From positions 1 through 64,000 of the forward strand of contig SVJJ01000005.1 of NCBI GenBank assembly GCA_015069045.1: a stretch of 64,000 bases of DNA. Direction: 5' to 3'. The position numbers were made by a program, and so were the translations under genes. Below the pieces are notes generated by a model. It saw only the letters and a program-made list of their open reading frames with translations. It did no database searches and was not told the origin of the DNA. Below are positions 430 to 649 of the stretch, one piece after another (the stretch's first letter is position 1; each line of letters begins with the position of its first letter). The DNA comes from Oscillospiraceae bacterium. Lineage in GTDB: Bacteria; Bacillota; Clostridia; UBA1381; UBA9506.

Positions 430-649
430 CGGTGCACAGCACCGCAGCGATATGAATTCTTGCGAATTCTCGATATGTGCTTCGCACTCGATATGCCTGA
501 CGGCTCGATATGTTGCTGACGCAACGAGAATTCATATTATATCGAGTTTGACCGAAGGGAAAACATATCGATTTTACGAAGTAAAAATATCGAGCAAACT
601 TTAGTTTGCATATCGACAAAAATTTTGTCCCTAACTTGACAAAATCATA
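430..649. repeat. Array of short, non-identical hairpins joined by TCGATAT/ATATCGA linkers, ending in a TTTTGTC-CCTAACTT-GACAAAA hairpin
   Basis: Stems read directly: CGGTGC/GCACCG 430-444, GAATTC/GAATTC 454-469, GTGC/GCAC 477-487, GCC/GGC 495-504, GTTGC/GCAAC 512-525, TTTTAC/GTAAAA 572-586, GCAAAC/GTTTGC 594-609, TTTTGTC/GACAAAA 623-644; linkers at 470-476, 488-494, 505-511, 610-616. Confidence 0.8.

Follow-up and report, generated by a model that had tools for sequence, protein, structure and literature searches.

A shape-conserved, S23-associated palindromic repeat dispersed among gut Clostridia

The window analysed here is the whole stretch of 64,000 nucleotides taken from a contig of an Oscillospiraceae bacterium, and no rRNA was found in it. 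Positions 430-653 (all coordinates refer to the + strand) form a single non-coding, palindromic unit of approximately 224 bp, flanked by a small ORF and a GntR-type gene; after it come a terminator and a gene in convergent orientation. A recurrent module, GCATCTAAACCTTATGTGTCGCAAT (403-427), lies to the left of the unit, and sequence comparison within the genus grouped it with the tails at the ends of other copies of the unit and of gene cassettes. Series of small ORFs split by the modules TTTTTGTTCTAACTTGACACGAAC (after stop codons) and GTTTGCATCTAAACCTTATGNNTCGCAAT (before the next gene) were observed at positions 133-427 of the window, at L354, L365 and L369, and at other loci of the genus; these series form cassette-like arrays, and the left edge of the window is one such array. 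A different palindromic repeat, AAAAAGCCTCCCCTGTGTAAGGGGAGG...CCCTCAGTCAGCTACGCTGACAGCTCCCTTTACACAAGGGAGCC, was present at the genus loci L350, L357, L363 and L372, and some of its copies carry an ORF resembling a DUF559-type endonuclease.

The unit forms a multi-branched structure, here called the fishbone, in which a main stem of four linker helices has three perfectly paired four-way junctions in between and an apical hairpin on top. The initial annotation had described at least eight hairpins lying head to tail and joined by an invariant TCGATAT linker. All eight hairpins that it named were found in their places; however, the linker reads TCGATAT on the + strand at 470, 488 and 505 and ATATCGA at 539, 565, 587 and 610. 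Since the orientation flips mid-element and the left and right linkers pair, the unit is one multi-branched palindrome and not a head-to-tail array. Its left end is the hairpin H0 (CGGTGC-ACA-GCACCG, 430-444), followed by the left linker L1 (CGATAT, 448-453), which is invariant in 31 copies, the hairpin H1 (GAATTC-TTGC-GAATTC, 454-469), L2 (TCGATAT, 470-476), H2 (GTGC-TTC-GCAC, 477-487), L3 (488-494), H3 (GCC-TGAC-GGC, 495-504), L4 (505-511), and the apical hairpin H4 (GTTGC-TGAC-GCAAC, 512-525). Beyond a spacer (GAGAATTCATATT, 526-538) that is the reverse complement of L1 and the 5' arm of H1, and with which these can alternatively pair, the right half consists of R1 (ATATCGA, 539-545), H5 (GTTT...AAAC, 546-564), R2 (565-571), H6 (TTTTAC-GAA-GTAAAA, 572-586), R3 (587-593), H7 (GCAAAC-TTTA-GTTTGC, 594-609), R4 (610-616), and a right-end tail (CAAAAATTTTGTCCCTAACTTGACAAAATCATA..., 617-653) that includes the hairpin TTTTGTC/GACAAAA. 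The linkers were read from the sequence, with comparison of copies for L3 and L4, and the side hairpins, H4 and the spacer were assigned by comparison with other copies (parsed copies in the case of H4). In the window copy, L1 pairs with R4, L2 with R3, L3 with R2, and L4 with R1; H1-H3 and H5-H7 occupy the inter-linker positions with almost no unpaired bases, which leaves the junctions nearly fully paired. Six side hairpins, two per junction, and H4 thus make seven hairpins on three stacked junctions. The invariance of the linker held inside one copy but not between families, in which it differs (e.g., CGATAT, GTGAAAT, and ATGAAAT).

The pattern TCGATAT-N5..30-TCGATAT occurs five times in the window, always at the fishbone, and was absent from shuffled sequences; single-strand folding gave z = -6.1 on each strand, and none of 200 shuffles was as good. 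We parsed 37 CGATAT-type copies, complete or almost so, from other loci and compared 28 copies, including that of the window, arm by arm. The linker count was exactly four on the left and four on the right in 27 of the 37 and in the window copy, and the other 10 were truncated, decayed, or altered in hairpin number. The earlier suggestion that the element grows by adding hairpins was therefore mostly unsupported, with a tandem duplication of two hairpins seen at L143. Among distinct hairpins, the four closing pairs were intact in 14 of 15 for H1, 18 of 20 for H2, 12 of 19 for H3, 17 of 20 for H5, 18 of 20 for H6, and 14 of 20 for H7. When the 5' arms of H2-H7 were matched with 3' arms from copies in which the arm differs, full pairing was found in only 3-8%, whereas the arm's own partner fitted in most; the same swap was less informative for H1 (40% full pairing with different-sequence copies). 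The outer base pair of each linker, as in L2, alternated between T.A and G.C among copies. In an alignment of 31 sequences, 93.6% of cells were paired and both sides had changed in 32 of 61 pairs, counts that, like the other pairing and covariation counts given here, are inflated by the structure-guided choice of copies and by their relatedness; none of 500 shuffles reached the observed score, and slid partners paired in only 26-46%. The alternative helix formed by L1 and the 5' arm of H1 with the spacer was 97.2% paired and also covaried, and the spacer was the reverse complement of L1 and H1 over 12-14 bases in every compared copy except three, whose mismatch is at the first of the bases compared. 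The competing pairing noticed earlier (GATATGAATTCT/AGAATTCATATT) is thus real and conserved. Likewise, the arm swaps and the 31-copy alignment bore out the claim of variable stem sequences combined with a preserved structure and linker, and compensatory change was present in homologous copies. These results confirmed the initial observation and indicated that the element is more ordered than had been described. Perfect hairpins, the near absence of G-U pairs and the replacement of whole hairpins between copies could also arise if the hairpins were neutral palindromes, perfected by template-switch repair and functionless; we regard this as very improbable, as it leaves unexplained the fixed 4+4 linker topology and conserved order, the long-distance linker pairing, the presence of the H1 arm a third time, in the spacer, and the gene association described below.

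To address the distribution of the element, we ran a covariance model built from CGATAT-linker copies only on 95 genomes of the order; the genomes compared are fragmented drafts. Matches were patchy, occurring in 22 of the 95 genomes and 13 of 27 genera, with up to 17 per genome (a few places being counted on both strands). The source genome holds four copies, on contigs C9, C14 and C17 and, in the window, on C21. Uniqueness of the locus in its genome and relatives, which the initial annotation would have taken as evidence against a selected hairpin array, was thus not observed. The model also recovered other linker families to which it has no linker similarity (GTGAAAT/ATTTCAC, ATGAAAT/ATTTCAT, GTGATATT/AATATCAC, and ATGAATT/AATTCAT), and the family AGCTAAAT/ATTTAGCT was seen directly; all of these retain the topology and a spacer that repeats the H1 arm. 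Broad pattern scans gave many chance matches, and we retained a locus only if its linker sets were opposed. Because its sequence drifts almost freely at a fixed topology, sequence-based repeat finders would split or miss the element. A chimeric fishbone at L450 (G013:C20) has a TGAAAT-type left end and a CGATAT-type right half, suggesting recombination between families. Two IMG/VR contigs classed as viral (L156 and L163) carry fishbones, perhaps as proviruses or through phage-borne transport.

The ends of the unit were determined by BLAST of positions 1-1500 of the window against the fetched loci. Homology started exactly at 430 in L124, L281, L285, and L268, and the copies were 93-99% identical; the full-length copy at L124 matched at 97.8% over 224 nt (430-653). 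Alignments finished at 653 in L124, L265, and L269 and at 651 in L042, L133, and L288, and the sequence outside was unrelated. The left neighbours differed as well: the L124 copy lies behind a AGCTAAAT-type fishbone, the window copy behind the small ORF and a GCATCTAAACC module, and the L281 copy behind something else. Near-identical copies with exact ends and unrelated flanks indicate a dispersed mobile unit, and thus a non-autonomous mobile element was the best supported of the three options that the initial annotation had offered. Like units were found in tandem (three ATGAATT units with an S23 gene after the last), and unlike units succeeded one another after one tRNA (L438 and L450); contigs break inside the element in some assemblies. 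No empty site for the window copy was found, the neighbouring GntR gene having no close ortholog in the 20 relatives searched for synteny, and the flanks of the C14 copy gave only dispersed matches and no clean empty site. As to features of MITEs, exact unit ends and tail ends that echo the target were found, together with no transposase, no empty site, and no proven target-site duplication; a cognate recombinase was likewise not found.

Copies of different families commonly occupy particular sites: those with CGATAT, ATGAATT, and AGCTAAAT linkers come after TATAAT and a hairpin, and those with GTGAAAT and GTGATATT linkers lie behind tRNA ends (...CCA) followed by a terminator hairpin. A tail, GCATCTAAA..., closes many units, and its final bases are similar to the left-hand flank, namely TTCCA after tRNA-CCA and TATAAT after TATAAT. 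The same tail stands behind S23 genes, either directly or after extra genes, and overlaps the S23 stop codon in the source genome. From such sequence resemblances, integration by a recombinase may be proposed. A second class of cassette after tRNA-CCA (L487 and similar loci) starts with CGTCGGAACAAG..CTTGTTCCGATTTTTTT, has different content, and ends in a shared GCATCTAAACCATTCGGTTCTTCCA tail. An earlier proposal that the CGGAACAAG...CTTGTTCCG hairpin to the right of some copies is a displaced native tRNA terminator was withdrawn, as this hairpin also opens another cassette class with the same tail. The target-matching tails, the hetero-tandem arrays in which each unit opens with its own hairpin and closes with a tail, and the related modules that separate small genes in the genus would fit integron-like cassettes that enter tRNA 3' ends and related sites via the GCATCTAAA tail, with the fishbone as one type of content or as a folded recombination site. 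However, no integrase is tied to these arrays of cassette-like order, the tails are variable, and the window copy has a different one (TTTTGTCCCTAACTTGACAAAATCAT); we therefore hold integron-like behaviour to be unlikely.

Several copies have, within approximately 20 nt after their right end, a ribosome-binding site and then an ORF of approximately 115-120 aa, which belongs to the 23S_rRNA_IVP family (PF05635, E ~1e-22; four helix bundle protein TIGR02436) and has 2rld as its closest solved structure. PF05635 genes were present in 27 of 61 relatives. Among 47 distinct S23 upstream regions, a strict linker detector, which reached the same level in none of 2000 random windows, found an exact-linker fishbone in 14, and the covariance model added 6, so that nearly half of the S23 genes in relatives have a fishbone directly upstream. 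A fifteenth match of the strict detector (L313) was an unrelated repeat and was discounted. About half of the S23 genes are without a fishbone; among them is a tRNA-linked group that has a long, simple inverted repeat. At the tRNA-linked S23 loci L326, L335, L338, L340-L343, and L347, there are no side hairpins, and an inverted repeat (e.g., ACTTATTACCTATTCACTCTTCACT...) lies between the tRNA terminator and the gene. In three genomes (L279, L291, and L297), S23-bearing fishbones are located at the 3' end of a RumA-like rRNA methyltransferase gene, and there the last part of the coding sequence is itself able to fold into H0. Full-length members of the element comprise the hairpin, the fishbone, the S23 gene (sometimes with cargo) and the tail; solo members have only the hairpin, fishbone and tail. 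A PF05635 ORF was absent from the window copy and from most solo copies, and some genomes, such as G001, contain solo copies and no S23 gene. The source genome has exactly one S23 gene, behind the C17 fishbone, and none at the window copy, so that the latter is a solo copy with a possible helper in trans. Given the S23 association, the protein-binding array of the initial annotation is plausible.

The annotation had also considered a structured RNA, and we asked at which level the fishbone acts. G-U pairs made up 2.1% of side-hairpin pairs, compared with 8.4% in 92 tRNAs of these loci (acceptor and T stems); their rarity fits a constraint on both DNA strands, although recent renewal of hairpins by template switching would give the same low value. 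A transcribed leader or small RNA, such as an autoregulatory leader of S23 reused elsewhere, might alternate between the fishbone fold and the pairing of H1 with the spacer. TTGNAA-N17-TATAAT immediately precedes H0 in several copies, which would make a transcript begin with H0 and the fishbone, a Shine-Dalgarno sequence and S23 come after the fishbone in some copies, and the two mutually exclusive covarying pairings are as in attenuators. In other families, however, the promoter lies between the fishbone and S23 (L309, L314, L322, and L331), many copies are behind a tRNA terminator, and the window copy, with a terminator and a convergent gene after it, has nothing to regulate. Rfam searches at gathering and relaxed thresholds gave no relevant match in the region, the best weak one being rliE (E=0.03), far below the cut-off. 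We thus consider an RNA role somewhat unlikely, and the low G-U fraction, the variable place of the promoter, and the copies behind terminators led us to favour a role at the DNA level.

Dispersed intergenic palindromes also recall REP/REPIN-like repeats moved by a Y1 HUH (RAYT) transposase, and RAYT-like ORFs of approximately 160-190 aa are present in many of the genomes examined. Nevertheless, the source genome has only a short, truncated RAYT-like ORF (L512, G000:C18:16648-16755; 92 aa from the first ATG), as opposed to the full ORFs of many relatives; G007, G013, and G018 have fishbones and no Y1 match; and a fishbone-like linker cluster was near only one of the nine RAYT loci read (G020). 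The associated gene is S23 and not RAYT. With no consistent RAYT link, mobilisation by RAYT was unsupported, and we judge a REP/RAYT-type repeat to be quite improbable.

Taken together, the shape, compensatory evolution, copy number, exact unit ends, spread to unrelated flanks, and S23 association make the fishbone a well-supported example of a shape-conserved, S23-associated dispersed element. The window locus is probably a solo, non-autonomous copy of such a mobile palindromic element; recognition by S23, movement, and site preference are the parts of this reading that we infer. The original interpretation was thus partly supported and sharpened. An S23 oligomer would recognise the extruded fishbone, as a DNA cruciform or a single strand, and its binding might mark the fishbone to be moved or protected by a recombinase, whether of the host or another. 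S23 could act in trans on solo copies, and insertion would occur preferentially 3' of hairpins located at tRNA ends, at terminators, and at promoter starts. More tentatively, the fishbone may represent a mobile element of a new class, maintained by its shape and not by its sequence and built as a ladder of four-way junctions that resemble Holliday junctions; this ladder would be bound by an S23/IVP four-helix-bundle oligomer and would move as cassettes into hairpin-marked tRNA-end or promoter sites via the GCATCTAAA tail; we regard this as a doubtful possibility. As a mobile repeat, the element is unusual in that its sequence, linkers included, drifts almost freely and its junction topology is fixed. 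To our knowledge, S23 proteins have no catalytic activity and the S23 branch has no established function. S23/IVP proteins have long been known in connection with ribosomal intervening sequences and are related to the Avd protein of diversity-generating retroelements (DGRs), and the fishbone offers them a concrete candidate ligand. The location of S23 genes beside a defined covarying shape with many gene-less copies makes S23 function testable in vitro, and a shape-kept element recognised by S23 would, if real, give this protein family its missing role.

By the features tested, the fishbone is not a member of the intervening sequence (IVS), REP/RAYT, DGR, or Rfam families. The open-access literature searched yielded papers on IVS and Avd and no prior description of such an element; it seems to be a type of mobile repeat not described before, which is found in many gut Clostridia and frequently adjoins an S23 gene. 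Type III toxin-antitoxin systems were rejected, as the hairpins differ in sequence and are not direct repeats and the gene is S23/IVP and not ToxN. REP/REPIN elements are short dispersed palindromes with a RAYT transposase as helper in trans. The fishbone resembles them in its dispersal and in having a candidate helper gene in trans, but it has seven different hairpins on three four-way junctions, its helper candidate is S23, and a Y1 HUH transposase is rarely near fishbones. MITEs, BOX, and ERIC are non-autonomous repeats that are small, non-coding, multi-copy, and structured, as is the fishbone, which is apparently related to a gene-bearing version; in contrast, the fishbone is conserved by shape and not by sequence, and it has no transposase relative. 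Integron attC cassettes are folded palindromic DNA in cassette arrays with attI/attC sites; fishbone units share the folded palindromes and cassette-like tandem arrays, but in place of attI/attC they have the tail motif GCATCTAAA and are anchored at tRNA ends. Avd, a PF05635-like four-helix-bundle protein, works with a structured nucleic acid in DGRs (PMC10053308); despite this related protein, no template or variable repeats were seen, and Avd-style retro-movement was rejected, as no RVT_1 reverse transcriptase was found in the source genome (G000) or nine other members of the genus. IVP ORFs also occur in rRNA insertions of CPR bacteria (PMC11270868), and 23S rRNA IVSs with an S23/IVP ORF, for example in Coxiella burnetii, have been proposed to be selfish or mobile and are spread across distant taxa (PMC4990558). 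Like the fishbone, these join an S23/PF05635 gene to strongly palindromic sequence, but they lie inside rRNA helices with one long terminal stem around the ORF (PMC4990558). No 23S rRNA helix encloses the window copy, whose neighbours are a small ORF and a GntR-type gene, and the fishbone in general is a multi-junction palindrome upstream of the ORF, located at tRNA ends, promoters, and intergenic sites and dispersed as gene-less copies.
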